Source of the DNA: Micractinium sp. NFX-FRZ
Taxonomy: Eukaryota > Chlorophyta > Trebouxiophyceae > Chlorellales > Chlorellaceae
Direction of reading: 5' to 3'
Assembly (NCBI GenBank): GCA_029339195.1
Contig: JAPTJF010000182.1
Span: 1 to 64,000 of the forward strand
DNA length: 64,000 bases
In this document: positions 3,001-37,005 of the stretch, piece by piece
Layout: every line of letters begins with the position of its first letter
Position numbering within the stretch: position 1 is the first letter of the stretch
The notes under the pieces: generated by a model
The model's input: the letters and a program-made list of their open reading frames with translations, nothing else
The model's database searches: none
What the model was told of the DNA's origin: nothing
Program-made: the position numbers and the translations under genes

Positions 3001-6000
3001 GGGGGGCGTGTGGGGAGGCGAGGGTGGGCAGCGGCGGCATGGTGCACGTGCAAGAAGCCCCAGCACCCACTGCCGGCTGCCGGGGCGGTGCACCCTTGCG
3101 CCAAGCCCGGGCAGCGACCCCAGGCCTCAGCTCCTGGCCCTGCTAGAATATCTCCAACTCCCTTGGCCGATGCCTCTCCTCCGTTATACTACCTTCATCT
3201 CCCCAGGCATGATGTCCCTCTTCTGCCCTCCCTCTTAGCCCCCCCCCTCCCACACCCACACACACACCTTTTCGTCACGGATGTCGTCGGGGTGTATGCT
3301 CAGGGGCTTCTCCATGGCAACAAACGCCAGCAGCTGGGTCAGGTGGTTCTGCGACGGGGGGGAGGGGGGCAGAGGGGGCGGCCAGAGGAGCAGGGGGCGG
3401 TGTGATGCTAGATGGGGGAGGAAGCGGAGGGGATGCAGGAGGGCAGCGCTGGAGAGGCGCATACCACCACACCACCAACACCTACACGAATACCACCACG
3501 GCGCGCACACACATTACGACGCACACGACAAACCCACACCACCACCACCACCCACACGTATACACACGCCCCGCCTGCCCCCCCCACCTGGATGACGTCC
3601 CGAATGATCCCAAACGTGTCAAAGTAGCCGCCCCGACCCTGGGTGCCAAAGTCCTCCTGCAAGGCACGGGATGATCACGGGATGAGATGAGGCAGGCTCA
3701 ATGTGACGGCCACGTCAGGCTAGTGCCTGCGTTTGTGAGAGTGTGCCCTCACACACCGCCCTAACCCGGGTGGCCGTTGAAGCCATGCAGACCTCGGCCA
3801 ACAGCCCGGGCACGGCCCCCCAAAAAGACACGCACCTCCTGCAGCCGTCTTGCCCTCACACTCCACGGTGCTGCCCCCCGCACAGCCAGCCGTGTCGCGC
3901 ACACCAACCCCTGCCCCCCGCACATCCAGCCCCGCCGCACCCGCCAGGCCCTGCCCCGGCCCCCCTCTCACCTTGAACGTGATTTGGACGTTTGAGATGC
4001 AGTTGCGGTCCCACACGGGGGACAGGAACATGTTGGCAAACCCTGCGGGCAGGCGGGGTGGGGCAGGCGGGGCGGCAGCAAGGGTGGGATAATCGGGCGG
4101 CGTCCGTTAATGCAGGCGCGGAGAATCGCGCAGCTCCCACGTACCACAGCACGCTTCACGCCCAAACAAACAAGCCTCCCCCCACCTGCCCCCTGCAACA
4201 GCAGCCCCCCCCCCCCCCCCACTCACGCATGACAAACAGGTTCTGCACCATCTCCTTGCCCTGCAGCCCAGGAGGAGTGGCACGGCGGGTGCCGCAAGCA
4301 GGGGGCCGGGGTATGGGCGGCAGCCAGGGCGACGCCGGGCAGGCAGGGGGGCAAGCAGGGGATGCTTGGGTAGGACGTGATGCAACGCTCGTCGCCAGCA
4401 GTGCACGCTAGGGCATGGCGCAGCAACGGTGCTTAGGAGAAGCAACTCAGCCAGTACTGGTTGAGCCTTGTTAAACCAAAATCAAACTGAAACAGCCCTG
4501 CCCGTCCTGCCTCACGAGGCAGAGATCTATGCGGTATAGCTCGCTGTCACGGTACGACCACCCCACTCCACAAGGTTGTACTGGAACCAAGGCCCCCCCT
4601 CGGTCCCGCCTCACCAGGTAGTGGTCTATGCGGTACAGCTGGCTCTCGGGGTACAGCCGCCCCAGCACCTCTGCCAGCTCCTCGCTGCTCCCCAGGTCGT
4701 GGCCAAACGGCTTCTCCACAATCACCTGCAGGGCAGCGGGGGCGGGGCAGGGCAACGATGCAGGAACAAAGACATGAGTGACAAACGGGTGTCCCTGACC
4801 GCAGGGGATCTCAACAATTACCTGGGCGGCAGCGGGGCCGGGGGCAAGGCAAAGTGGAATACAAACAAGAACGCATGGACGTAACAAAGGGGTGCCCCTG
4901 ACCAACGAACGAGCTGCTTCGCAAACGCCGGCAAAGCCTGATGTGGGCAGCGGGGAGCAGCGGGTGGGCGGGGCGGGGCAGGGTGGACGAAAGGGGGGCA
5001 GTGGGAGGGTTCGGCAGCAGGACTGTACTGCCGCTGTACTGCGCCGTGAGCATGCGCCCCGGGTGGAACCCTGAGCAGCAGGCAGGGACCTCGGCTGCAC
5101 CCGCCGCCCCTCCTCACCCGCAGCCAGGAGCCTTCCGTCTCAGGCAGATTGTCGCAGTAGGTCTGCAAGGAGAGGGGGCGCAAAACAACGCAAAGCACGG
5201 CAGGAAGCAGTTGCCTCAGTAGGTCTGCAGAAGGGGCGCTATAAGGAAGCAAGCAGCCAGCAGGGGAAGAGGCGGGAGCGGGGCGGCACGGGGCGCTTGG
5301 GTGCAGCTGAGGCGCCATGGCTCCACTCTCAGCAAGCGCCTGGCCGTGCCCTGCCGGTGCAGCTGCAGGCCCCCTGTCCACCTTCCCTGCCCGCCGCAAT
5401 GCGCAGCAGGAGCGCTCGCCACGCTGCTCTTGCTCCCCGCACCCACCACTCCCCTCGTCACGCACCTTCCACACCCACCATTCCCCTCGTCACGCACCTT
5501 GAGCCCGTGGCAGACTTGGGGGTATACAGAGGGGGGCAGTGCGAGGTAGTAGAGGCGGCCGCAGGGGCAGTCGGTGTACCGCCCCTCACGCTGGCTCAGA
5601 GCCGCCTCCAGCCCCTGCCAGCCTTCGGCGCCGTCATACGAGCCTGGGGGGGTTGGGGGGGGACGCGAGGCATGGCGGATCTGCTACGATGCACAGACAG
5701 CAGGCATTAAGGGAGACAAGCAGGGAAACAGCGAGACAGCAAGCCAAGGCAAACGTGGACGCCCGCTTGTGCACCTGCGGTGCTGGGAAAAGGCGCCTTC
5801 CTGTGCCTGGCAACTCCCCATTCACGCAATCAAGCTCGAAATTAGAACAACCAAACAAATAAATAACCAAGATGTCTCGCCTTGGATGTAGGTGCAGCGC
5901 TGCAGGAAGGCGTCCTTCTCCGCCTGGCTGCCCTCCAGGCGGGGCGCCAGCTTGGCGCGCAGCTGCTCGCTGGTCAGCGGGGAGCGGGCATAGCCGATGA

Positions 6001-20104: not shown

Positions 20105-22569
20105 ATGAGCGACAATGCAGCAGCAGCAACCTTGCCCGTCGAGCCAATCGTGGCTTTGGACGAGCTTCAGTCCGAGGAGGCGCTAGCTCACCCCATTGAG
20201 AGCGCCATCCACACAATCGTGGAGGTCAGCAGCCTTGTTTTGGCGCAACACGAGTCGATTGTAGCGAATGGCGGGGCAGGGGAGGGTCGGTGCCGCCGCC
20301 GTCGCCGCCCTCTGTGCCAGCTTCTTCCGAGCATCCTCTACTGTGGTTGCCCTGCCCCCCTCCTGTGATTCGGAGAAACCGCACCTTAGACGGCCCAGCC
20401 TGCAACAGATGTTCACCCTTTCAAGCACCTTGGCGCACCATGCAGGCCCTCGCCGACGCCCCGCTCACCCGCTTCCTGGCGCGGCCTGGCCACGAGCGCC
20501 AGCTGGTGGCGGCCCAGGTGGCCCTGGACAGGTGGGCCGGCCGCCCTGCCTCCCCCCGTCCTGCCCTGCCCGCATCAGCGCCTTGCAGTGCCGGATTCCA
20601 TACACTTGTCCAGCAAAGCAGCCAACTGCTGGGGCAACGGGGAGGCACCCGAGTGCCAACACATGGCGCTCGCCCCTCGTTGAGACCTGGCAATGTTGGT
20701 TGGCCAAACAGACTGGATCTGGGCATGACCTCTACCGCTGCTTTTGCTCCCAAACCCGGGCTGCCCACCCTTGGGGGGATCAGGCAAACTTCACCCGATG
20801 CCTGTGCTCGCTGCACCCCCGCTTCTCGCGTCCCCCCATCAGGGCTGCCCACCGCTGGGAAGTGGTAGAGAATCATGATTTTCGGAGCGTTGCGCTGGTA
20901 AGGGAGGTGCCTGAGGCAGCTGCGGCAGCAGGAGCAGCGGACGAGGAGGAGGAGGAGAGGGGCGGCGGCGGAGGTGCAGCGGAGGGGCAGCAGCGGCGGA
21001 GGGACGGCCTGCCGGGCAGCAGGCCTGTGGACACCAGTAGAGCGGAGGCGTCGGCAAATGTGGAGGGACCTGCCGCCGGCGTTGGCGGCGCTGCTGGCAC
21101 AGGACAGCAGCAGCAGCAGATGGAGGGACAGGAGCAGCAGTTGGCAGCAGGGGTGGATGGGGAGCAGCTTCGGGCGGCAATGGAGGCGGGCTCTGTGGGG
21201 GCCCTGCTTGCCGCAGGGGTGGCGCGCCTGGAGGCGGGTGGGTGGGTGGTTGGGTGGGTCATGGCAGCAGGAAGGGGGGCGTGGCTCGCTGTGGAGGGAG
21301 AGGAGCAGCGAGGTTGTGTGGGGGTAAGCAAGAGGACAGCCAGAGTGAAGTAGGCGGCACGTCTACGTATGCCGCCCATCCCCACCCCTGCCCCTGCGAC
21401 GTGCTCACGCCCCCAGCCCCCTTTACTTACTTGTGCTCACGCCCCCAGCCCCGCCACTGCTGAGCAAGTGCCACCCGCAAGGGCGCTGCCCACCCCCTCG
21501 GTTCTGCCCTCCCGCAGAGCTGCTGCTGCACGTGCACCCGGAGCGGGTGGGGGCGCTGCAGCAGATGAGGCGGGAGCTGGGGGGCAGCCTGGAGCGGTAC
21601 TGCCAGGTGGGAGGAGTAGGGATGATTGGGGCCAGGCGTGGGGGCTTAGATGTAGAGGAGGTCGGGGGGCGGTGCAATTGTGACTTGCATGCACACGGGG
21701 CGCTGCGGAGCATTGGGCCTGCCGTAAAGTGGTGGTCCTTGGGTAGCTTGGCATGCGCCATTTGAGGGGGCGCCATCTTGGCACAGCACCTAGTGCTGGG
21801 TGATCCGCTTGGCAGGGCACCAGTGCTGTGCCTCCTGGTGCCCTGACTGCTTCTGGCCTGTCCTGCTCCCGCCCACGCCTGCAGGCTCATGGCCCGCTGC
21901 TGCACCTGCACTACTTTGCCACCCGGCCAGAGGGCAAGGAGCATCCGGGGGAGGGGGAGGGGGCGGGTGTGCTCCAGCACTTGGAGCGCATGGCCGACGC
22001 CGGTGAGTGCGCGCTGACGTGGCGGCAGGGGTGCTTGGGAGCAGGCTGAGCAGCAGCTTGTGCCTGTGGCTTTGGGAGGCTGGAGGGTGTGCCTTCCTTG
22101 CCCTCTCGCCTTTGAATGAGGAACACCATCAGGCAAACTTGCGACCCTGCCCACCAACTTGATGCCTGCCTCCCACAGAGAGCCGGATTGTGTATGCGGA
22201 GGCCGGCAGCGAGCAGGCGCGCCGCCTGTACCTGCGCCACGGCTTCAGGTGGGGGCGGGCTCACTGGGGAGGTGGTGCCGAAAAAGCAGGGTGGGGAGGT
22301 GGTGCCAGCACAGTGGGGCAGTCTCATGAGGACACCCGCCCTGGCTGCGCTGCTTCTTCATCTTCTTGTTCATCTGCCATAAGGGTACGTCTCAGGCTTG
22401 CCCCCTCAAGCCGCATGCCCTGGCTTGGCTGCCTGCGGGTTGCAGGGAGGTGGAGCAGGTGGAGGTGAGCGGGGAGGGCGCCCCCACCCTCACCATCCTG
22501 GCCCGCCCGCCTGGCGCCCCATCAGCTGTCGCCTCAGAAGGGGACCTGGCGGCTGTGGGGGAGGACTAG
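20105..22569 (+). CDS. GNAT-family N-acetyltransferase with an unusual low-complexity insert
   Basis: Transfers acetyl from acetyl-CoA to an amine; the substrate cannot be inferred. Exon 1 is 20105-20224, exon 2 20446-20531 and exon 3 starts at 20843; they join in phase to give SAIHTIVEALADAPLTRFLA, typical of the GNAT N-terminus. Later exons give the central strand (GPLLHLHYFATRPEGKEHPG), the helix VLQHLERMADAE, and the C-terminal IVYAEAGSEQARRLYLRHGF, the classic motif A/B signature. Between the N-terminal part and this core lies an insert of about 130 residues (20930-21240) rich in Glu, Gly, Gln and Ala. The acetyl-CoA loop reads RPEGKEHPGEGEGAG, a loose version of the R/Q-x-x-G-x-G/A motif, so activity is not certain. 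The stop is at 22567-22569. Confidence 0.78.
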
Positions 22570-23028
22570 CAGGCAGCAGCGCGGCAGTCGGCGCAGAGGC
22601 GGGGGACGGGGTGCTTACTTTTGCGGCGGTGCGGTGCAGCCTCTTGAAGCAGCCCTGGCCAGGCCACGAGAGACGACGGTGTAGCATGCATGCCCAGCGT
22701 GCCGCGTTACGAATGCATATGCGACAGTCACTGTGATGGACAGGCAGCATACAAGTTTTGACAGCGGGTGAAAACAGGCTGGGAGAGATCGCTCGGCCGC
22801 TGCCACCGCCCATGTCACCGCTGCCACCACCACCCACATGTGGCCTGCTCCGTGCAACATCGCCTCGCCTTATCAGCGCATCAAACGATTACCTTTGCCG
22901 ACAAAATTTCACCGGCACCGGCGACCAGAACCCCGGGCAATGGCAGCCGGAAGGGAGCAAGTTCCGCGCCCAGCTTGTCCCGGCCCTATTGAGCGCCTAA
23001 GAGCGCTTTAGGACGCGGTGTAGTTACG
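22570..23028. other. Intergenic region upstream of the AT-hook/AlkB/PHD gene
   Basis: Holds the 3' UTR of the acetyltransferase gene and the likely promoter of the next gene. No coding feature is supported. No TGTAA was found directly after the acetyltransferase stop. Confidence 0.4.
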
Positions 23029-26000
23029 ATGATGGGGGCAGCGCGCCAGACGAGAAGGTGGGTGTCGCAAAACCCTATCGACCCACATGCCGTGAAGCAA
23101 AGGTTTGCTTGCGTTATATGGCTCTCTTGTTTATTTTAGCCACCCAGAAATGCATGACGGCGCCGACACACTTCGCTGACGCTTCCGCAGGAGTGGCAGC
23201 GGCGGCGGCACTGGCGGCAGCGGAGGTGCCGTCGCCCAGGCCGAGACTCGTGCTCTGGCGGCCACACCAGCGAAGCGCAAAACAGAAGAAGAACACCATG
23301 ATGCGCAAAGCAGCAAGGCCAGCAGCAGTTGCCCCGGCACTGGCCCCAGCAGCGCTGCTGTTAAGCGGCACAGGTCGGCGGCAGCAGCGGCAGCGGGAGC
23401 GGCCGCAGCAGCGGGTACCTCCTCTTGCAGCGGCACCAGCTCAGCAACAGCTGTGTCAGCGTCAGTGGCCTCATTAATGGTACTTTCAGGAGCATCAGCA
23501 TCAGCAGCGACACGCTCAGGCGCAGCATCGCATCTAGCACAGCCTGGGCCGGCCATGCTGCTGCCGGGCATGAGCACCAGCAATGCCCTTCGTCCCGCCG
23601 CCATGTCGCTCGCCATGCCTGCGCCTCACCACACCCCACTGGCCATGCAGAGCCCCACGCCACTACAGCAGCGCCCGCCCGCTGCCGCCGCAGCGCTTGC
23701 GCAGCTGGCAGCAGTGCTGCAGCCTCCCGTGATTCCTCGCAAGCGGGGCAGGCCACGCAAGCATCCGCTGCCGCCCGAGAAGGAGCGACAGGAGCAGGAG
23801 CGAGCGGTGGCACACCTGCGCCAGCAGGCCAGTGCAGCGCAGGCAGCTCTGCAGGCAGCTGGGGCAGGCGCACCTCCTGCTGCGCCGGCATCTCAGCAGC
23901 AGGCCCAGCAGCAGCAGCGCCAGCAGCAGCAGTGTCAACAACTGCAGCCGCTCAAGCCCCCTCAGCCGCCGCCGGCGCCGCCGCCGCAGCAGCCGCAGCA
24001 ACCCGTGGCATCTTGGATCAACCTCCCACAGGCCCTGGTGGCGGCAGCCCAGCATCATCATGGGCCGCTGATGCGTGGACTGGCGCTTGACCTGCCCCGC
24101 CTCCTGGCCCTGCTGCAGCAGCACGGTGCTCCCCCCGCTGCCACACAGCATGGCACAGCAGGCGGTGGGCAGGGCGGGAGCAACCCGGGCCTGCCGGCGC
24201 TGTGGCGCCAGGCGCAGGCGGTGGTGGCGCAGCAGGCGCTGCGCCTGCTGGTGCAGCGGCTGGAGAGTATGGCGCCGCCACCCACAGACCAGGCAAGCAG
24301 GCAGGCGGGCGGTGCTTTGTTGTTGTTGGGGGCGCCCAGCCTGGCTCTCTACTGGGAGCCCTGCCCAGAGTGTGTCTCCCTCTTGCATGCGAGCAGAGGC
24401 GCTGGGGCAGCCATAGATGCAGCCTTCTTCAGGGCCCTCCACCAGGGCTCCCGCCAACAAGCTTGACCCCCGCTCCCGCTGCTCCCCCTATCTATTTATC
24501 TCTCTCTTGCAGGCAAAGCCGACCGCGGGGGTGTCGTATGTGATGCACACGGAGAGCCGGCAGATTGGGGCAGATGGCATGCCGCAGCTGCCGCACCTGG
24601 GTAGGAAGCCGGGCAGGGGCAGGGGCATCGGCAGGGGAGCATGACCTGCCCTGCCAGCTGCGCCATCCACCGCTGGCATCTGCCAGACAGCCTAACGACC
24701 GAGCTGCACGCTCTGCTGTCCGCCCGCCTGTCTGCCTGCCCTGCAGTGATCCAGCCCCCTGGGCTGCAGCAGATCAGCGGCCCCACAGTGGATGCGCTGG
24801 CGACGACCATCGCCTCTGAGGTATGTACCGCCCTGCCGTCTGATGAGAGGCAGCGGACTTGCATTGTGTAAGGGGGGCTCACTCCGCTGCCGCCTGCGGC
24901 ACTGTCGCTCCACCCCTGCCCCTCATCCCGTCGGCTGCTCTGTCTGCCCTTCATCTGCCCGGCCAGCCGTCTCTCACGTGATTTCCCCACGACGCCCACC
25001 CCCTGCTGCCCGGGCTGCCCCTGCAGCCCACCGCCGCCGCCGTGCTGCCTCTCAGGGAGGAGAACCACATGAAAGCCTACCTGCTGCTGCCCCAGGGCCG
25101 CGCCGCGCTGCTGCACCAGCAGGGCGGGCGGCTGGTGGAGGCGCCAGGCGGTGCTCTGGGGCTGGAGCCGCTGCTGCAGGTGCGTGGGTGGGTGGGTGAG
25201 CAGGTGGACGAGCGGGCATGTAGCTGGGGCACTGTGTGCTGTTTGGCCAGGCTGGCAGCGATGCCAGGTGGAGCTCTGCCAGCGGGGCCTGGAGCCTGTA
25301 GGTTTGTGCATGGAGGTGACGGGGCAGGCTGTTCAAGGCAGTCGGCGGCGGCTTTCTGCTGGCTGTAGTGCAGCCAGGTTGTGGGCGCATGCGACAAGCA
25401 GCGAGCCGTGTAGAGATCCCATGTGCCCCAGCACCACGTGTCGCCACTGCCGCCTCCCTCCTCACATCACCGCTCCCTCCACCTCCATCCCCCTATCACC
25501 GCCTCCCCGTTCCCGCACCCTCCCATGGCCTGCCCCTCCCAACCTCCTATCTATTGCAAGCTCCTGTGCAGGACCGCTCCTTCATCTGCCTGCACTACCA
25601 CCTGGACCCTCAAGGTCGCCTGCACCCGGTGGCCACATCCCCTGCTGCCACCTGTGCTGCCGCCAGCGGTGCCGCCAGCGGTGCTTCCGTCGGCGGCGAC
25701 ACAGCAGAGGGCGGCAGTGGCAGCGGCAGCGGCGACGGCGGAAGCGGGTGTACCGCCGGCGGTGTGAGGCGGTACAGTGTGGAGCAGTCGAATGTGCAGC
25801 TGGGAGTGATGGTGCGGAAGGGCGTCGGCGGCACGTGCCCACTCAGGTGCGCCTGCCCGCCTGCCCGCCCCGCCCGCCCGCCTGCCCATGGCCGCCTGCC
25901 TGCCTTGAGCATGCCGGTCGGCTGACTCATCTCGTTTCCGGTTCACAGTTCCCACTTCCCGCCTTCCCCTCCTCACTTCCCACTTCCCACGATCTTCCCA

Positions 26001-26330
26001 CATCCTTCCCACATCCGTCCTGCTTCCTCCCCGCCTCCCTCCCGCCTCCCCCCCGCCTCCCTCCCATATCCTTCACACATCCCTCCCACCCACTGCCTGC
26101 CTGCCTGCACTTTGCGCAAGCCTTGGGGTGCTTGATCTGTTGCTGCACGTGCCAGTGCGCCTTGACGAGCAGGATGGGTGATGCTCCTCCGTCTCATCCG
26201 CCCTGCTTCTGCTGCTGCTGCTGCCGCCACATGCATCCCTGCAGGGCCGCGGCCCGCCGGCTGGCCGCCTGTGGCGTGCTGTCGGCCCTCCTGGATGACT
26301 CGGTGCAGGCAGCAACAACCTGCACACCAC

Positions 26331-26363
<33 letters not shown>

Positions 26364-29288
26364 TGCAACCCACAGGCCCCGCCTCTGGCACCTCGGCACC
26401 CTCTCTAGCCAGCAACAGTGCTGTGCAACCACCGGCGACAGCAGCACCGCTGGCACCACGCTCCCAGCCGCTGCCGTCACCGCAGCAGCAGGCGGCTGCG
26501 GCACCAGTCACGCCTGGCTTGCTTGCGGCTCCGGTGCTTCCCATGGCACCCACATCAGCAGAGGCATCAGCCTGGCACCCTGTGTCGACCAGCCCAGATG
26601 CCCCTGCCTCTGCCTGCGCTGCTCCGGCACCCCAGCCGCCGGCCTCAGGCAGCGGCAGCAGCAGCGGCAGCACAGGCCGTCCTGGCAGCGGAGGCAGCGG
26701 CGACGATGGCGTGTGCAGGAGCCTGGCGGCAGCGTTTGTGGATGCTTTGGTGGGAGCCGCTGAAGCTGACGAGGCGGCTGCTGCTAGGGCAGCTGCAGCG
26801 GCCCCGGCAGCGGCGCAGCGCACAGCAGCAGCAGCATCACCAACGCCGCCTGCAGCGGCCCCGCCAGTGACAACACTGCCAGTGTCACTGCTCCCCACAG
26901 CAGCGTTGCCGGCAGGTCCTGTTCCTGCCACGCTGGCTCCTGCAGCCTCTACACCACCAGCGGCAGCAGCAGGTCCCGCTGACCGGCTCTGCCACCTCAC
27001 CACTGCTGAGCTGGAGGCAGCGCTGCATCGTGCTGCGGCAGACCTGAGGGCGGCGGAGGCGGCAGCCGCGGCAGCTGCAGCAGCGGGGGATGCAGACATG
27101 CCTGACTTTGATGCCGAGGACGCAGCGGCTGAGGTAGCTGAGGAGGCTGCTGAGGTGGCGGCAGCAGCGGGGGGTGGTGAGGGGCAGCTTGACGGCTGCG
27201 AGGCTGAGGGCGAGGGGAGCGCAGCAGGCACAGCAGGCGCAGCAGGCACAGCGGGTGCTGAGCTGGCAGGGGAGGAGGGAGTGGAGGAGTTGCTGCAGGA
27301 GATGCGGGAGGAGGAGGCACAGCGGGCGCAACAGGCACAGCACGCAGAGCAGGTGGAGCCTGCGGTGTCGCCAGCAGCAGCCGCGCAGGTGCTGCCTGGA
27401 ACGGCTGGACCTCATCATGTGTCTCCTGCAACTGTTGCCGCGGGTGGCAGACCGGCAGACGGCGCATGCGTGGCATCGCCTGTGGCTGCACAAGCTGCGG
27501 CCGCTGCTGCTGCGGCGGCGACGGGCGCAACGCCGCCGCCTGGCACCGTGCCGGTGCCAGGGCCACCTCCACTTCACCAGCCGCACCACCGCCTCAGCAT
27601 GTACACTCTGAGCAGTAGGCGAGCCCTCCATCCGCCCCTGGCAGCTCCCTCGTGCGGATGGCTGCCGCCTCCACCTTGCTGCCTGTGCTGCCGCCGGTTG
27701 CTGCCTCTGTGCCCGCAGGGCGGAGGCTGCATGTGCTGCAAAGGGCGTCGCCCCTGTAAGTGGCTTCCTTAAGGGGACATAGTGCTGTACTGCTTTTCGT
27801 GCCTGCAGGATTGAGCTGTATGTGCAGCGGGAGACGTGGGAGCAGTTGGATGCGTGAGTGGGGCCTGGTGCGAGGCCTGGTCACTGCCCAGGGCCAGGTT
27901 AAGGCCGCCTGCTGCCATCATGTGTGCAACCTTGCGCTGCGGAGGTGCCTGGGGCTGGCAGGCAGCATGGCGGGGCAGCCTGCCTGGTTACTGGGGAATG
28001 GAGACGGGCTGCTGCTGAGTGCTCTGGGCCATTGCCGTTGCCGTCGCTGTGCTTCCCCTTTGCTGCCTGGCAGACCGCAGCGTGGCGCACCTTGCCAAGG
28101 TCGCTCCACCTCCCAACACAACCAAAGTGCCTCTCCATTCCGTGATCCCCTGCCTGCATCTCCCCCCCACCCGCCCGCCCTCTGCAGTCCGGCACGCAAC
28201 GCGCTTTACTCTGCGGCACGCCAAATGGAGCGCCTGCTGCTGCAGGCGCTGGCTGCCGCCAACCACCGACGCCTGACCGATTTTGCGCGCCGGCTGCAGG
28301 CACGCTGGGGGGCAAGTGCAGGCAGCGCTTAGGGTTGGGCCATTCTCAGTGTGTTGTGCGAGGAAGGCGAGGCAAGTGGGGTGAGCCTGTGCCGCTGCCC
28401 ACGCGCCCTGCTCTGGGCAGTCTGCCTTGTCACCTTTGTTTAATCAAGTCCCATCCCTCCCACCAACCAACACCCTGCCCACATGCAGGCAGCAGTGGGC
28501 ACAGATGCGCTGCACTCACCGCTAGGCCGCCTGCTGCTGGGACCAGACCCCGACGTCCAGGATGCTCAGCATGCTCAGCAGGCCCAGCAGGCCCCTCAGT
28601 CGGAGCACAGCGTTGATCTGGACTACAACGCTGCCGTGGTGCTGGCTGCCAGCTGCCTGCTGGCAGCAGACAGCTGCGGCGGGCGCGGCTCGACCCTGCA
28701 GGTGCCCGGGGGGGGGGGGTGCGATGCGTGCATTTGAGGTGTGGCCTTCTCGGTCTCGCCGACCTGGCACACTCCATCAAGCAGTATGCTCAACTCCTCT
28801 GCTAGCTCCATCCAAGTGCCTGCATGTGGGGTCTGTTTGGCGGGGGCACGTGCTCCTCTGCTAGAATTGCCTGGGTCCAGGCCTGTATTGATATTGATGG
28901 ATCCGTCCGGTTCTCCCTTGTTGCTTCTGTGCTGCCCTCCTGCAGGTGCCTTGGCCCTACTACTTCATTGCCACCCGGGACAGCTTCACACACCGCCTGG
29001 TGCCCGTCGAGTGAGCGAAAGGGCTGTGTGGGTGAGGGTGTGTTGAGGGCTGCTGAAGGCTGCACAGGGCTGCACAGGGCTGCAGTCTAAATCGCGTGTT
29101 GCAGCTGCCAGCCCGCCTGCACCCTCATGTTGCAGCATAGCCACTACTATTGTCATATGCATGCCTGCCCGCCTTGCGCTGCACATCTCCCCGCCCCTGG
29201 CTGTCCTCCCTTGCTTACCTTGAGGTTTGGATCCTTTGCCCTGCCGAAGCTCTGATCCGCATGAATTCACACTGACGTACGTTACATT

Positions 29289-29332
<44 letters not shown>

Positions 29333-32300
29333 TCGTTACATTCTTTCTTCTCCCTCGCTTCCCAGGACGTCTGTGGAGGCAGGCGGCCGGCGGTACACCA
29401 AGACTGAATACTTTCTTCAGGAGGATGAGTGCCCCGAGAACTACAGTGAGACCCTGGCCGCCTGGGCAGCCAAGCACGGCGGCAGCCAGAGCCAGCAGGG
29501 CAGGGAGGGCACCGGTGGCGGCTCTGGCGGCGGTGGGGAGACGGTGTCTGATGGGCACGCTGCGCCGGCGGACTCGGCGCTGGCGCCTGGGACCCCCGAG
29601 CCTGCGCCCGGTCGGCTGCTGCCCATAGGAGTGACGACATACTGCCAGCTGTTCAGCGATGCTGAGCTGGCAGCCATCGAGGCGGGCTCAGGCAAGGGTG
29701 AAGGGAGTTTTGTAGGGCGGAGCACAGTGTGTGTGTTGGTGGTGGAAGAATGAAATGGGGCTCAGTGGCTCTTACACGCAGCTGTTCAGCGGCGCTCATC
29801 TGTGGAGAGCTCTATGACATTTGGAATGGGCTGCGTGCTGCTTGCTGGGCGTCATACTGCACCAACCTCGCCTGCTGTGCCCGCTCACCTCCCTGCCCGC
29901 TGTTTACTGATTGTCATCAGCTTGCCTGCCTGCCCCGCCTGCCTTCCTCTCCTGCAGACAGCGTGGATGCCCAGTCACGTGCCGGGCTGCTCCCAGACAG
30001 CTGCTACCACCAAACCGTGGCACGTGGCGGGGCGCTGAAGCGCACCAAGTACTTTTTCGGCGCCAGGTCAGCAGCTGGTGCCTGCCTGCCTCCCTCTGCC
30101 TGCTGTGGATGCTGTCAAAACGGCTCCGCAAGTCGGCAACTGCCATGCGCCCGCTTGTGGCCCCAGCCTGCTCCCATCTTCTGTGTCTTCCCTGCAACTA
30201 TTCAATCCTGCTTGTCAAGTGATCGATGTGCAGCAAGTGCTCAGCCGCATGAGCGTGAATTCTGAAGCAGCAGACAGACAAAGCTGTGTTCAGTCAAACT
30301 CATACAACCGCATTGGCCACATTACTTGCCCTGTGCTCCTGGATGGCAACATTGGCCACATTACTTGCCCTGTGCTCCTTATGGACTATGCTGCAGGTAC
30401 ATGTGGACGCGTGAGCAGCTGGGGGAGGCGGATTCCAGGGTGGCGGGGGGCGTGCGCATCGACGTGCCGCAGGCAGGTGAAGGGAGGGAGGAGGGGGCAG
30501 AGGCCGGAGGGGTATAGGTGGCAGGCAGCCCTGGCTGGAATGCACCCATGCTCCTGCTCTGCCTGCCCTGCCTGCTGCTTGTTAATCACTCACTGCCTTG
30601 GCCTGGCCTGCCCAGCGGGTGCAACAGTCAAGCGCCAGCTCACAGTAATCTCCTGCCGCCCAATAACCCTCCCACCACATGTGATGCGTGCAGCCGCCCG
30701 CCTGGATGCGGCAGCGCGTGGAGGCGCCGCTGGTGGGGGCGCGGCTGCTGCCAGAGGGGTATGTCGACTCCATCGCCCTCAACATGTACCACGACGGGTC
30801 AGAGGGCATCCAGGTGGGCACTCTGCCTGTGGCCTGATGCTGCGGTTGTGCCTGCGGATTCTTTAACGCGCAAGAAGGCAGGCATGCCAAGGGACGTGCA
30901 AAAGCCGGCCCAGCACCGGTGATGCAGGGAGGCAGGGAGACGGGGCAGTGGAGACGAGCAGGGGGGGAGGAGGGGGGGGCGTGCAGTTTTGGTGCGATGC
31001 GCTGCACGATGCAGCCCACCTGCCCACCTGCCCACCTGCAGCACACCTCTCCCCTGGCTGCCTCCCGCTGAGGTGGCATATCTGCGTGCTGCCCCAACCC
31101 CACATATATAACCTATGTAGCCACGCATAGCAGCAATGCCGGCGCCGTGCTGCTTGCTCCCCGAACATAACCACCTGCCTTTCCTCCTCGCCCCTCGCCC
31201 GCTCCCCTCCCTCCCACGCAGAGCCACTATGACGACGCCGACCGCTTCCAGCAACCCATCTTCTCGCTGCGCCTCTTCAGCGACAGCCGCCTCAGCTTCG
31301 GCACCCAGCTGTACGGGTGAGCTTGTATGCCGGCAGAGGGGCGCGGCGGGTGTGCACCGCCCGCCGCCTGCCCGCCAGACAGCCCCTGTACAGCCACTGC
31401 ACCAAGGGACCCAGTAGGGAGGCGCCAAATGCACGCCCTCGTTGCCTCACTGTCGTGCCTAAAGTCACCGTGCAGCCCGCACACCCCAACCTGCCTGCCT
31501 GCCCGCTGACCCACCCATCCCGGCCGCTACCTGCCTGCCCGCCAACTGCCGCCATGCAGGTACACCAACGGTGCCTTCTGCATCCCCCTCCCCCGCGGCT
31601 GCATCATGGGTGCGCACCTGCCCTGCCTGCCTGCCTCTCCACCTGGCCTGCCTGCCGCCCCACCCTGCCGCTGTACGTGCCCTTTGAACTTGTCACCAGC
31701 GGCTTGCCTAAAGCCGCCCGGCTGTGCATGCCTCCCGTTCGAGTGCGGTGATGACTAAACTTGGCTTTGCCCTGTCGGCCCCTCTGCCCCACCCCGTGCC
31801 CTGCACCTACATCCCTGTTCAGTCATGGAGGAGGGGGGCTACGCAGCCAACGGGCTGAAGCACTGTGTGAGGCCAATGGACATGAGCGGCAAGAGCGCGG
31901 GCATGATCCTGAGGCGCATCAACCCCCGGGCGTGGCGGGAGGCGGAGCAGGCACGGGGGTGGGGCGGCTGGGATGGGAAGAGGTGCAACACACGGCCAGC
32001 CCAGCACATTCACACCCTGGCACGATTGTCCGTTCAGCATCAGCGAGCAAGCAGGTCAGCCCCTTGGACTCCCCCATACGTGCAGTGTCGTCACCTGCCT
32101 GCCCTGCTCCACGGCCTTTCCACCCTCTTTGTGGTGGGCTCTCTCTGCTTTTCCTTTCCAGGGCACCCCACCCCGCTTGACCTGCCCCCTCCCCCGCAGC
32201 CACATCTGGACGAAACCCTATTGTCTGCGCTGCCTGTCCACTTCTATACACACTCCTTTACACCCCACCTGTTGCCGTTGCAGCTGCACCTGGACGAAAC

Positions 32301-35300
32301 CTGCGCCTGGCTGCGCTGCCTCTCCCTCAACACCAGCGCCCGTGCCGCCGCGCTGCTTGCGCAGCGGCGCGCCGCCGCGGGCGGCTTGGGCACTGGCGCC
32401 GGGCCCCGCCCCGCACGGCAGCCACGCGTGCCGGCGGCCGAGCGCCGGGAGGTGTGGCGCATCATGCAGGTGGGAGGGAAAGAGGGCACGAGAAGGGATG
32501 GGATGCCTGGGGGTGTGGGGCTGCAATGGTAGCGGTGCTGCCATGCCAGTGCTGGCAGGCCACTTCCTTTCTTTCCCCCACCCCACCCCAAACCGCGCCC
32601 TTCCCCTGCTCCCCATCCCAACCCCACAGGAGCTCATCCGCCGTGTGGAGCAGGCAGAGCGGCAGGAGAGGCTGGCCGACGTCACCGCCCAGCTCATGCT
32701 GCTGTCCGCAGTCAGGAAGGTGTGGCGGAAAAGGAAGGGCGTAGCCAGGGGTGGGGTCACGCGGTCAGTGGAGTCTAGTGGGCAGCCCGCTTTACAGCGA
32801 TTTTGGGGGAACTCACTGGTTGCCTTTGCGGCAGCAGTGCAAGTTAAATTGTGAGCCACCCCCTTCTCTGCAGGTGGAGGCAGCAGACCGGCTGGGCGTG
32901 GATCTCGGTGCCGAAGGCGGCGAGGCCTGTGCCGTGTTCAGCGTGCTTGACGACATCGTCAGCTGGGTGGAGCGGCCCGCTGCCAGCCTGGCACAGCACC
33001 CACAGCACCCCGCCAGGTGAGGGGTGACACTCGCCAGCACGGCTTTACCCTGTGTGTGTTTCGTGTTGCCTGGCATTGGCCGATGCCATCCCCGTGCACG
33101 ACACAGCAAGCACAGCCTCCCGTCATGTGAGGGATCCGCATGGCGTGCACACATAGCGTTCACACATGGGATTGGCGGACAGCGGTGGGAGGCCTCAGCA
33201 ACATGGGCCTGCTTGCCTGACTTTTTCATGCTTGCCTTTGTGACCACCCCGTCTGCCGCCGCCGACGCCGCTTCTCCGGTCGCTGCGTGCAGGGGGCGGC
33301 GGCGCGGGCCGGCCTCGGCAGCGCACGAGGTGGGCAGGACGGTGCAGCGCATGGTGCATGCAGTGGAGGAGGAGGAGCGGCAGGAGCAGCAGGCAGTAGC
33401 TCAGGTGTCCCACAGCTTGGTGCGCTGCATCGAGGCGGGCGCCGCTTGGGACGCAGGCGGTCAGCACGGCCTGCCGCCGCCCTACCGGCTGCTGCCGCTG
33501 CCCTCGCCTGCGCCGGCAGCAGGCGCGGTGCAGCAGCTCTGTATGCAGCGCCTGCTGCTGCTGGCCAGCAACGTGGCTGCTGTGGCCTTTACAGGCAGCA
33601 TGCCGGCCACTGCTGGCAGCATGGGAGTTGACGCAGCAGAGGTGGCGGCAACCAAAGCAGCCGTGCTGGCGCAGCTCCAGTTGCCCAATGAGGCAGCGCT
33701 GCGCCAGGCATTGATGCTTGCAGCAGCGCCGGCGGTGGTAGCTGCCACCAAAGCGGCGGCAGCGGCAGCGGGGCCGGCGGTGCCCGCACCTGGCACCCTG
33801 GTGCAGGCGCAGGTGGCGGCAGTGCAACAGCAGGCCATGCTAAGTGTCCTGGCCTCTGCTCTGCTCCAGTCTGAGGCCACAGTGGCAGCCGTGCGAGCCT
33901 GGGCAGAAGAGCAGCGGGCACAGGAGGCCAGGTCAGCAGCCGTGTATGCTGCCGCCCTGCTGCCACCACCACGTCACCCTGCCAGCGATGCACCGCTTGG
34001 CAGCCCCTACCTGCTTCCAGAGGGCGGCAGCCGCGACGATGGTGGTGGTCAGAGAGGGAACAGCGGCAGCATTTGCGGGACAGGACAGGCGCGCACGCAC
34101 GCAGCGGCGCTGCCGGGAGGCGCTGGCGGCGGCTTGGCGGCCAGCCGGCAGCTGCCGCCGGGGCGGTCGCTCACAGCCGGCAAGGCATCAGCAGCGGTAT
34201 GCTTTGCATGCTGTGCTGGGGTGCACCAGGAAGGTGAGCGGCATCTGGCCAACTGCCAGTGGGCGGCCTTGACGTCTGACCGGCTTTGACGTCAATGCTG
34301 GTAGTGGAACTTGAACATGGCGGTACTGCTTGCATGGGTAAGAAGTTGTACTTACCGAAATTTCACTTTGGTAATGTCGCTGCCCTATCCCCTGAAGCCT
34401 TTCTACACCTGTACCCCCCTGCTTTCCATGCGCAGCTTCGGGGCAGGAGCTGTGGGCGTGCGAGGGCCCCTGCCACCGCACCTTCCACCCGCGCTGCCAG
34501 CAGCCTGCAGCAGGCGGCGGGCCGCTCCGCCGCTGCCAGCAGTGCACCACCAGCAGGTGGGCAGCTGCCTGGCAGGGCTGCTGCATTTTCCTTTGTACTG
34601 GCAGCAAGCCTGGGCTGCCTCCTGACCCTGCTCATGCTGTCCGGCGCTTACCAAGTCCCCGGCTACAACCCCACTTGCAAGTGTGTTTGACCGTTTATCT
34701 TGCCTGCCTGCCTTCCCTGTCCGCCTGCAGCCACCCGTGCTTTGCGTGCAGCGGGCCGCCGGGGCCGCACGGAACCGTCAAGTGCAGCATGGGGCATTGC
34801 GGGCGGCACTACCACTGGCAGTGCCTCATTGCAGACCCACTGACCAAGGTAGGAAGGGGAAGGGGAGGAGGCACCTGTCCACAGCGGTGTGCACGCCTTG
34901 CACAGGTATCCTTCAGAGCTCGGCCTCTGCTCCTTTGGCGCGCACTGCACAAACGGAGGCAGGGCGACAGGTGCACCAAGCGTCCCATGTCTCCTCTGCC
35001 CCATGCTGCTGGCAGCACCTCCTGCCTCAGATGCTCGCATCCACACCGCCACTCTGCTGCCCAACCCGTCTCCACCGCCCCAATCTCCCCCCCGCAGGTC
35101 AGCCCCAGCGGGCGCAGCGCCAAGTGCCCGCTGCACTACTGCTCCGAGTGCGGCGCCAGCGGGGACGGAGTGCCCATGGTGCAGGTGAGGGGGAGGGTGT
35201 GATGAGTTGTCTGGTTGGGTGGTTGCGCGGCACAGATGGAGTATGAAGGGGGGGGGGGGGCTTGAGAGATGAGGTTTGTGCCGGCATGGCTGCGGCGCTC

Positions 35301-36445
35301 CCCCGCCCAGCCATCTCGTTGCTGCGTGGCAGGAGGGGCAGGCCACTCTGCAGCTGGTGCGTTGTGTGGGGCCCATCTGCACACTTACGCGGCTCACCCT
35401 GCTCCTCCCCTTCACGCAGTGCCTGCGCTGCAACCGCGGCTGGCACATGCGCTGCCGCCCACCCGGCTCACGCCTTGTCTCGAAAAAGTTTCTGCTCTGC
35501 CCCCGCCACGTCAACGAGCAGCAGGCGGAGCAGCAGCTGGAGCAGCAGTCGCGGGCAGAGCAGGGGCAGCAGCAGACATCGGGAGCGACGGTGGCAGCGG
35601 CAGAGCAGGGGCAGTCGCAGCCTCATTCGCCGCTTGAATCTGACCAACAGCAGCAGCAGGAGCAGCAGCGACAGCAGCAGCCCTCGCTGCCACAACTGCA
35701 GCAGCAGGTGCAGGGGGCAGAGGATTCTAAAGAGGAGGGAGAGCTGTCGCCCACCAGCCAAGCCCCACCCGAGCAGCAGCCGCAGCAGCAGGCACAGCAG
35801 CGCGTGCACCCTGCGCCAGCTGTGCCGATGCGGGAGCCGCCGCTGGCACGCGGGGGAAGCAGTGCAGCCTCTCCAGGGGGCCGTGCCGCCACTGCGCATC
35901 TCCTGCGCTCGCTGTCCAGCTTTGGCAGCACGGCTGCCTGCACGGCTGGGGCCGAGGAGGGGGAGCGCCTTGTGAGCAGGGCCGGTGTTACTGCAGCCAT
36001 TGCACTGGACTTTGGGCAAGGCGTGGAGGAGCGGCGTGCCTCTACCACAGCCGACGCCTCACTGGTCCGCTCGCTCTCTACCTGCGGCAGCCAGAAGTTG
36101 ACAGGCGTTGGGCGGCGCCAGCAACAGGCGGGCAAGGCGGCCCAGCAGCAGCTGCAGCCACTGCCGCAGGAGCAGGAGCAGAAACCGCAGGCCAGGGGGC
36201 AGCAAGCAGCGCCACACGCAGCACAGCAGGCGCCCCGCCCAGGCGGCGGCAGCGTGCCCTCGGCAGCAGTGCCCCAATCCCCAACCCAGCAGTTCCAGCA
36301 GCAGCAGCAGCTCGACCTGGATGCCCCGCAGCCCGCCCAGCAGGCGCTGCAGCAGCGTGGCTCGCTGTCGCGGGGGCTGTCGCTGCAGCCCTCCTGGCAG
36401 GCCAGCCTGGCCAGCCGGCAGGAGCTTGACTATGGGGAGCTGTGA
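23029..36445 (+). CDS. Giant AT-hook / AlkB dioxygenase / NSD-type PHD protein (about 2,300-2,400 aa)
   Basis: Probably a nuclear oxygenase that uses Fe(II) and 2-oxoglutarate to demethylate a nucleic acid, tethered to chromatin; the substrate is unknown. Exons placed: 23029-23057, 23191-24292, 24513-24600, 24747-24820, 25027-25179, 25572-25846, a long exon from 26245, then many short exons, one at 33293-34233, and the last ending at TGA 36443-36445. In order: basic patches AKRK and VKRHR, an AT-hook KRGRPRKHP (23741-23767), Ala/Pro/Gln linkers and an acidic stretch (27.05-27.35 kb), the AlkB domain (29.6-31.95 kb), helical linkers, three PHD units (34.2-35.5 kb) and a Gln-rich tail. Phases fit across 23058/23191, 25846/26245, 33016/33293 and 34233/34437, which ties AlkB to PHD. 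The weakest link is 28312, where continuation needs a GC-AG intron; otherwise the gene could stop at 28332 and a second one start at ATG 28484. Confidence 0.72.
23741..23767 (+). other. AT-hook DNA-binding motif
   Basis: Encodes KRGRPRKHP, a canonical AT-hook core (GRP flanked by basic residues) that inserts into the minor groove of AT-rich DNA. It is the only DNA-binding motif recognised in the giant protein. Confidence 0.85.
29287..29334 (+). repeat. (TTTC)12 microsatellite in an intron
   Basis: Twelve uninterrupted TTTC units, shortly before the exon that opens ETSVEAGGRRYTKTEYF. The tract could act as an extended polypyrimidine tract for that acceptor. Confidence 0.95.
29620..31945 (+). 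other. AlkB-type 2-oxoglutarate/Fe(II) dioxygenase domain (multi-exon)
   Basis: Successive exons read GVTTYCQLFSDAELAAIE, ALKRTKYFFGARYMWTREQL, VEAPLVGARLLPEGYVDSI, ALNMYHDGSEGIQ, SHYDDADRFQQPIFSLRLF, SFGTQLYG, YTNGAFCIPLPRGCI and GLKHCVRPMDMSGKSAG followed by MILRRINP. The iron ligands are visible as HYD in SHYDD (H-x-D) and the distal His in KHCVRP; the Arg pair in ILRRINP matches the 2-oxoglutarate-binding Arg. The pattern is closest to plant/algal ALKBH9/10-like and ALKBH5-like proteins, which act on RNA, but the substrate cannot be deduced. Confidence 0.85.
30308..30384. repeat. Tandem duplication of about 38 bp in an AlkB-gene intron
   Basis: A stretch containing CATTGGCCACATTACTTGCC and the following CTGTGCTCCT occurs twice in a row, immediately before the exon encoding MWTREQLGEAD. 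Confidence 0.8.
32199..32240 (+). repeat. Intronic copy of an exon start and its acceptor (AlkB/PHD gene)
   Basis: The tract after the CCCGCAG at about 32194-32200 is an imperfect copy of the exon beginning after the GTTGCAG at about 32276-32282. Both contain CTGGACGAAACC and both continue CTGCGCTGCCT. Either acceptor looks usable. Confidence 0.75.
34197..35520 (+). other. Three PHD-type zinc fingers resembling the NSD methyltransferase cluster
   Basis: Finger 1 spans a splice at 34233 and reads CFACCAGVHQEASGQELWAC with EGPCHRTFHPRC and RRCQQC. Finger 2 reads HPCFACSGPPGPHGTVKCSM, GHCGRHYHWQCL and KCPLHYC. Finger 3 shares that last pair and reads CSECGASGDGVPM, CLRCNRGWHMRC and LLCPRH. The spacing and the CPLHxCSxCG join match the tandem PHD block of NSD/WHSC1-type histone methyltransferases (and EDM2-like plant proteins). 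No SET domain follows; the protein ends in a Gln-rich tail. Confidence 0.82.
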
Positions 36446-37005
36446 CGGACAGCCAGGCCAGTAACAAGTCAACCATTCTAGCTGACCGCCTGTTACCCAC
36501 ACTTGACAGCCACTTCGGCGCTGCACCCCTTTGCTGTTGAAACCACCAGCCAGCGTCACTGCTCACCCACATGACCCCAACCCTTGACAGACAATTTCCT
36601 TCACAGCCGCTTGATCAACGTTCAAGCTGATACACACTTGACGGAAGCGGGAGCGCATGTAAAACATTGTCAGTAGGAGAAGGCTGTACAGGGCTATCAA
36701 GGCAGCGGGGCGGTACTGAAGCACAAAAAGGGGGAAATTGAGAACGCGGACATTTGAGGGAAGGGGGAGTGGTGAGCAGGGCCAGGTGTTGCACTGGCGC
36801 ACCCTGCACAGCTGCTGTTGGCACAGCTCTGCAGGGAGAAAGGATCACTAGCTGTTTGCAGCCCTAAGCCTACGGATTGAAAATCATTAGCTGGGTGCCT
36901 ACTGTCCTGGGTGCTATCACAAGTCTATAACGTGCCGCGTCAGCCGGGGAGCTTGCTTGCAGCTGGCGGGCCAGATTCTGATTGCCGGCAAGCCGCCGGG
37001 GCTGG
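36446..37005. other. Convergent 3' region between the AlkB/PHD gene and the coiled-coil gene
   Basis: Contains the 3' UTRs of the two convergent genes. A minus-strand open frame (36563-36802) has a hydrophobic run, YRPAALIALYSLLLLTMFYM, but no start context, splice partner or domain, so it is not called as a gene. Confidence 0.45.
36658..36662 (+). terminator. TGTAA polyadenylation signal of the AlkB/PHD gene
   Basis: TGTAA 213 bases after the stop at 36443-36445, on the gene's strand. Confidence 0.45.

Follow-up and report, generated by a model that had tools for sequence, protein, structure and literature searches.

Can an adenine demethylase and a histone reader be one and the same protein? 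The question is raised by a gene in the first 64,000 nucleotides of contig JAPTJF010000182.1 of the green alga Micractinium sp. NFX-FRZ. This whole stretch, called the window here, lies on a contig of 113.5 kb (C182) in a genome of 66 Mb and 838 contigs. Among the 60 of 77 PDB rows listed for a PsaD exon of this genome, the top single-copy PsaD chain was 6zzx, from Chlorella ohadii (174.6 bits, the next 156.2), a chain of three repeats having the larger summed score; this agrees with a place in the Chlorellaceae. An earlier note on it had proposed that an AT-hook, an AlkB dioxygenase domain and three PHD fingers lie in one protein. We find the AlkB and PHD parts in phase with each other, but the AT-hook falls below threshold and its link to the rest is ambiguous. 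With confidence just short of even, we propose that the locus would be a single nuclear gene of a Chlorella-like alga encoding a chromatin-tethered, ALKBH5-type Fe(II)/2-oxoglutarate (2OG) dioxygenase that acts on N6-methyladenine.

An AlkB domain and a PHD triad in one predicted reading frame

What does the gene contain? Gene models, domains and residues were read from the genomic sequence, and frames were assessed by phase and codon usage. The plus strand carries 19 exons that join in phase, the first beginning at 27809 and the last closing with a TGA that ends at 36445; they encode 1355 amino acids through 18 junctions, 15 of them GT-AG and three GC-AG. The parts of this model are as follows.

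27809–29010, plus strand: region before the AlkB domain (exons 27809–27853, 28188–28311, 28489–28701 and 28946–29010), in phase, with the model frame outscoring the other five in each exon
28312–28488, plus strand: GC-AG intron, donor GCAAGT and acceptor ATGCAG, best plus-strand frame scoring −7.1
29366–31950, plus strand: AlkB dioxygenase domain of the ALKBH5 class, from PDB phmmer and the residue map (exons 29366–29697, 29958–30066, 30397–30472, 30694–30813, 31222–31316, 31560–31609 and 31823–31950, the last end uncertain)
31225–31233, plus strand: HxD of the iron site, equivalent to H204 and D206 of ALKBH5 (residue map)
31861–31863, plus strand: third iron ligand, equivalent to H266 (residue map)
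31894–31896, plus strand: codon of Ser434, at the position of the 2OG-binding R277 of ALKBH5, the first Arg of RxxxxxR (residue map)
32284–34199, plus strand: linker (exons 32284–32469, 32630–32719, 32874–33016 and most of 33293–34233), with the model frame ranking first of six in each exon
34200–35509, plus strand: three NSD-type PHD fingers, starting at 34200, 34738 and 35140 and ending with a His codon at 35507–35509 (NSD3 match, Pfam)
35510–36445, plus strand: Gln-rich C-terminal tail and TGA stop of the in-phase model

The AlkB domain that the earlier note had recognized is present, spread over seven exons, and among solved structures it can be placed firmly in the ALKBH5 class. Searched against the PDB with phmmer, it matched five distinct sequences of ALKBH5 (best E value 1.2e-26) and otherwise ALKBH8 alone, at 0.96; 73 of the 189 residues aligned with ALKBH5 (PDB 4o61), or 39%, are identical. 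The ALKBH5 class is a family of m6A erasers, m6A being N6-methyladenine in RNA. Exon-level searches of the genome, the scope also of our searches for PHD triads, SET, MT-A70 and YTH, found no ALKBH5-like locus besides this one at E ≤ 10; a pattern search for relatives gave no match in viral contigs and 11 in genome contigs, none of them a relative.

The PHD stretch matched NSD3 at 2.2e-15, over query residues 13–152 and so from within the first finger onward, and NSD2 at 3.3e-9. In Pfam, the third finger matched PHDvar_NSD (2.2e-16), and PHD_NSD aligned best to the second (9.4e-14); the first finger is identified by its pattern of cysteines and by the alignment to NSD3. All four matches to the triad at E ≤ 0.01 in the genome lie at this locus, with no second triad elsewhere, and the variant PHD model alone found seven places at E ≤ 1, three of them, this locus included, above the cut-off. 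No SET domain was found on C182 at E ≤ 0.01, the 14 listed SET matches of the genome all falling on other contigs, so the description of three PHD fingers arranged as in NSD proteins, without SET, holds.

Two exons elsewhere in the genome are of note. A minus-strand SET exon on C240 (L027 1501–1653), separate from the PHD triad, has the look of what we take to be the NSD/SETD2/ASH1 class. A variant NSD-type PHD finger at 3939–4049 of C178 (L015 1501–1611; PHDvar_NSD, 35.4 bits) presumably resembles plant EDM2.

Do the AlkB and PHD exons belong together? Codon usage was scored with a table of 1495 codons from 23 of the 44 loci fetched from the same genome, none of them from the AlkB–PHD gene; three of the 23 (L019, L020 and L038) were included on weak family matches, and the 12 loci of the AlkB–PHD locus and nine others (L004, L031, L037 and L039–L044) were left out. 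The model frame outscored the other five in all 19 exons, and in each of the 18 introns even the best plus-strand frame was negative. Across all 27 segments, which add the 5′ part and the stretch 27389–27560, the model frame was best of six in 25 and the best plus-strand frame in 26. Exons 33293–34233 (1.8) and 35420–36445 (0.2) scored more weakly. As for the splices that the earlier note used to tie AlkB to PHD, 33016/33293 is as it had been given, and the joint after 34233 is also in phase, but with its acceptor at 34436 instead of 34437. The three GC donors follow 28311 (GCAAGT), 30472 (GCAGGT) and 31950 (GCACGG). The second of these introns lies inside the AlkB domain, and its use is supported by the ALKBH5 alignment, which is unbroken at that joint, the nearby two-residue gap being six residues upstream.

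Several points weigh against a single AlkB–PHD protein of this class. PF13532 matched neither the AlkB domain nor, in the genome scan, any part of C182, in a comparison for which ALKBH5 was not run as a control, and it does recognize AlkB stretches elsewhere in the genome; in a profile search such as the earlier note had suggested, PHDvar_NSD and PHD_NSD matched and the AlkB profile did not. Codon usage in exon 34731–34848, in the PHD part, scores just below zero (−0.7). Of the joints in the AlkB–PHD part, the weakest is the donor that follows the last AlkB exon. By splice scores from a small matrix, built largely from sites of this very gene, the best donor in phase with 32284 is that after 31950, at 4.2, and the top donor of any phase, 32054 (GTCAGC), reaches 8.5; splicing it to 32284 would change the frame, and translation would then stop at 33397, upstream of the PHD fingers. 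The main transcript might then use donor 32054 and encode a protein that ends before the PHD fingers, or the AlkB and PHD exons might belong to separate genes. The AlkB-exon frame, however, is open across 31759–32532 and, if the intron after 31950 is retained, all the way to 36445 (1466 amino acids), codon usage marks the linker exons as coding in the frame of the model, and the first PHD cysteines sit at the end of the 941-base exon 33293–34233, which they share with the linker. Separate products are unlikely, and we give this alternative little chance. Because of the out-of-phase donor we lowered our estimate slightly, and regard AlkB and PHD in one predicted protein as very probable, well but not fully supported.

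The introns of this part hold two further features. Within intron 31951–32283, the stretch at about 32197–32250 resembles, by eye, 32281–32330, where the following exon begins behind its acceptor, and may be an alternative splice site. The intron preceding the first AlkB exon contains a TTTC microsatellite of 15.5 copies at 29287–29349.

The 2-oxoglutarate site and the likely substrate

What would such a protein do? The chromatin-targeted nucleic-acid demethylase of the earlier note is still the natural reading and can be sharpened to N6-methyladenine, but catalysis is less secure than it had seemed. The PHD triad would dock onto histone H3 tails, the AT-hook, if it is in the same protein, would grip AT-rich DNA, and the AlkB domain would then oxidize the N6-methyl group of adenine at the docked site, most likely, to judge from the ALKBH5 class, in m6A of nascent RNA. 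Because the domain matches ALKBH5 among solved structures, N6-methyladenine, first in RNA and second in DNA (6mA), is a likelier target than 5-methylcytosine or alkylation damage.

The residue map, numbered from H204 as anchor over the 189 aligned residues, shows R130, K132, Y139, N193, Y195, H204, D206, H266, C267 and R283 of ALKBH5 kept, with Ser in place of C227 and R277, Thr in place of C230 and Lys in place of R276. The three HxD...H residues, whose loss would have told against the earlier proposal, are thus all retained in the spliced model. Its claim of intact iron and 2OG residues stands for the iron site and for N193, Y195 and R283, but not for R277, which is Ser434. Among ALKBH5 mutants, R130A, H204A and K132R are described as inactive, K132E as having 19% activity and Y139A as having about 1% or none (PMC9023255). 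Since variants at these positions lose most or all activity, the kept R130, K132 and Y139 speak for m6A-type chemistry.

Is the enzyme active? A review names N193, Y195, R277 and R283 as the 2OG contacts of ALKBH5 (PMC11351023), and a 2005 paper describes HxD, H and RxxxxxR as nearly all that is totally conserved among known AlkB homologues, with the first Arg binding 2OG (PMC544882). Three features of the sequence count against an ordinary eraser. The motif RxxxxxR is here SxxxxxR, in a stretch (H266–R283) that aligns with ALKBH5 without a gap, and a Lys stands one residue before the Ser. Only two of the six PF13532 matches of the genome reach the motif, and both retain it (RINISIR on C624, RISLTFR on C75). 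Lastly, of the ALKBH5 disulfide C230–C267 (or C227–C267), which has been tied to single-strand selectivity (PMC7835257), C267 is present and both alternative partners are gone. Because the 2OG-binding Arg is a Ser, catalysis is less secure and the domain is best called a putative enzyme. A domain left weak or dead by the loss of R277 would turn over 2OG poorly and might serve as a module that binds N6-methyladenine, or as a chromatin scaffold; the Ser itself, and the conservation of the Arg elsewhere, both as described in the literature and in this genome's two other AlkB stretches that reach the motif, point that way. Yet the set of iron ligands is complete, R130, K132 and Y139 are kept and, of the four 2OG contacts, only R277 is lost, which is beyond the need of a dead domain, and the Lys sits just one position ahead of the Ser. 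We consider a weak or dead enzyme rather doubtful.

If the proposed eraser is active, is its substrate RNA or DNA? Exons of the adenine-methylation machinery elsewhere in the genome bear on this choice. An MT-A70 exon on C69 (L037 1501–1635) is nearer in the PDB to an "MT-a70 family protein" (4.9e-9) than to METTL3 (5.7e-4). Another, on C577 (L038 1501–1704), lies below the Pfam cut-off and is nearest AMT7 and MTA9 (1.2e-4), with METTL14 at 0.051. A third, on C177, matches "Methyltransferase-like protein 2" at 2.7e-10. We take the PDB chains nearest to the C69 and C577 exons to be those of the Tetrahymena DNA 6mA writer, and the two exons may possibly represent a pair of this kind. Our exon-level search, which misses much, turned up for METTL3 only an exon nearer to another MT-A70 type, a further point against the main reading; a METTL3 stretch used as the query found C69 alone, at 0.0054. 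Two adjacent YTH exons occur on C193, one above the cut-off (3.8e-6) and one below it (0.0048). For Chlorella variabilis, a published survey lists MTA, MTB and an eraser (PMC6576107).

The protein might accordingly be read as an eraser of N6-methyladenine in DNA, not RNA, at histone-marked chromatin. This reading draws on the C69 and C577 affinities just described, on the missing cysteines linked to single-strand selectivity, on the report that 6mA marks expressed genes in Chlamydomonas (PMC12695648) and on an AT-hook, which would favor DNA. It is countered by the match to ALKBH5, an RNA demethylase, with R130, K132 and Y139 kept, by the two adjacent YTH exons on C193, which suggest reading of RNA m6A as well, and by the sub-threshold score of C577. 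A DNA-only eraser seems to us unlikely; for the N6-methyladenine dioxygenase proposed here, both RNA m6A and DNA 6mA are possible substrates.

The 5′ part and its link to the AlkB exons

How far upstream does the gene extend? Three features precede the 19-exon model.

23029–27352, plus strand: 5′ part of 943 amino acids (exons 23029–23057, 23191–24292, 24513–24600, 24747–24820, 25027–25179, 25572–25846 and 26245–27352), in phase from ATG 23029 with no stop
23735–23767, plus strand: single AT-hook-like motif, PRKRGRPRKHP, scoring 12 bits with PF02178, below the cut-off of 17.4
27353–27808, plus strand: ambiguous joint between the 5′ part and the AlkB part, with many in-phase splice paths

The 5′ part is largely of low complexity. 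Its model frame is the best of six in five of seven exons, the exceptions being the first exon, of 29 bases, and exon 23191–24292, which contains the AT-hook-like motif (−52.8); exon 26245–27352, of similarly low complexity, is also negative (−25.1). No Pfam domain was found in the two pieces of it that were scanned, and a Pfam scan of region 27809–29010 gave no family above the cut-off. The loose AT-hook core recurs at two further places in the six frames of the window.

The earlier note had made the link to the AT-hook depend on the GC-AG intron at 28312. The in-phase GCAAGT donor is there, but the joint at 27.35–27.81 kb matters too. Under the limits set, 3367 paths cross that joint in phase and free of stops; a stretch in frame 0 at 27389–27560, with a codon score of 4.2, is unused by the best of them, and 516 paths use part of it. 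If the GC donor after 28311 is not used, translation stops at TAG 28330–28332, and a second gene could begin at the in-frame ATG 28483. These ambiguities, together with the sub-threshold motif, weaken the case for an AT-hook in the protein. They allow for two genes, the first with the AT-hook and a stop at TAG 28330, the second with AlkB and PHD and a start at ATG 28483, two codons before the acceptor. The score of the GC donor, 3.4 and the lowest of 22, leans toward such a split, as does the ambiguous joint. The distance from stop to start would be only 150 bases, though, the acceptor at 28489 scores high (11.5, with a matrix partly built on it), and GC-AG splicing is needed at 30472 in any case, inside the AlkB domain. 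No TGTAA poly(A) signal lies between the two, an absence that says little, since TGTAA is not enriched in the window. We rejected such signals as evidence, finding 24 against 19.5 expected, and for the same reason the TGTAA at 36658, 213 bases past the stop, says little. A division into two genes is, in our judgment, rather unlikely. The link of the 5′ part to the AlkB part is inferred, and one gene across the whole 23.0–36.4 kb is a reasonably probable reading of the sequence.

Upstream of this locus, the end of a plus-strand gene at 20600–22570 weakly resembles GNAT acetyltransferases (17.8 bits against a Pfam cut-off of 27).

Known relatives and significance

Has this combination been met before? 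With ALKBH5 the AlkB domain shares the iron triad and R130, K132, Y139, N193, Y195 and R283, whereas the algal protein differs from it in Ser at R277, Ser and Thr at C227 and C230, the PHD triad and a long N-terminal part. The plant relatives of ALKBH5, ALKBH9B and ALKBH10B, are likened to it here by family, the sequence comparison having been made with ALKBH5. With NSD2 and NSD3 the algal protein has PHD order and ligand pattern in common, and NSD-specific Pfam models fall on fingers 2 and 3; the NSD fingers matched are presumably their first three. Instead of a SET domain, for which the contig has no match, the algal gene carries AlkB.

The nearest precedent we met for an NSD-type reader outside a methyltransferase is EDM2 of Arabidopsis, described as having NSD1-like PHD fingers, the C-terminal one C4HC2H, and no SET domain (PMC3776765) and as governing polyadenylation at chromatin marked by dimethylated lysine 9 of histone H3, H3K9me2 (PMC7529245). 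In contrast to the algal protein, EDM2 has an EDM2-like domain, and AlkB is not named for it; general Pfam scans of parts of the algal protein showed no EDM2-like methyltransferase domain, although no search aimed at one was made. The AMT1 6mA writer of ichthyosporeans likewise ties adenine methylation to a PHD reader through its PHD-bearing p1 subunit (PMC12695648), but p1 is the partner of a writer, not an eraser. A plant protein of m6A-eraser type, AlkBH of Physcomitrella patens, is listed with one zinc finger motif, the type unstated in a main text that never uses the word PHD (PMC6576107). "PHD" was not found in the main texts of two microalgal or plant m6A surveys (PMC6576107, PMC11312118), and the titles and abstract openings of the papers listed from one open-access library showed no report of an ALKBH5–PHD fusion.

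What would the fusion mean for the alga? A bolder possibility, which we think somewhat unlikely, is that the sole ALKBH5-class adenine-N6 eraser of the alga forms one piece with a histone reader and that the state of the chromatin would thereby set the sites of removal; its 2OG site would be remodeled, and its substrates may include DNA. Chromatin marks and adenine N6-methylation are known to influence each other, to our knowledge via separate proteins. The Ser at R277 raises the question of whether an AlkB enzyme can function without the standard 2OG clamp. If the proposal is true, an ALKBH5-type eraser and an NSD-type reader would be united in one protein, and their direct coupling could be tested in a fast-growing alga.

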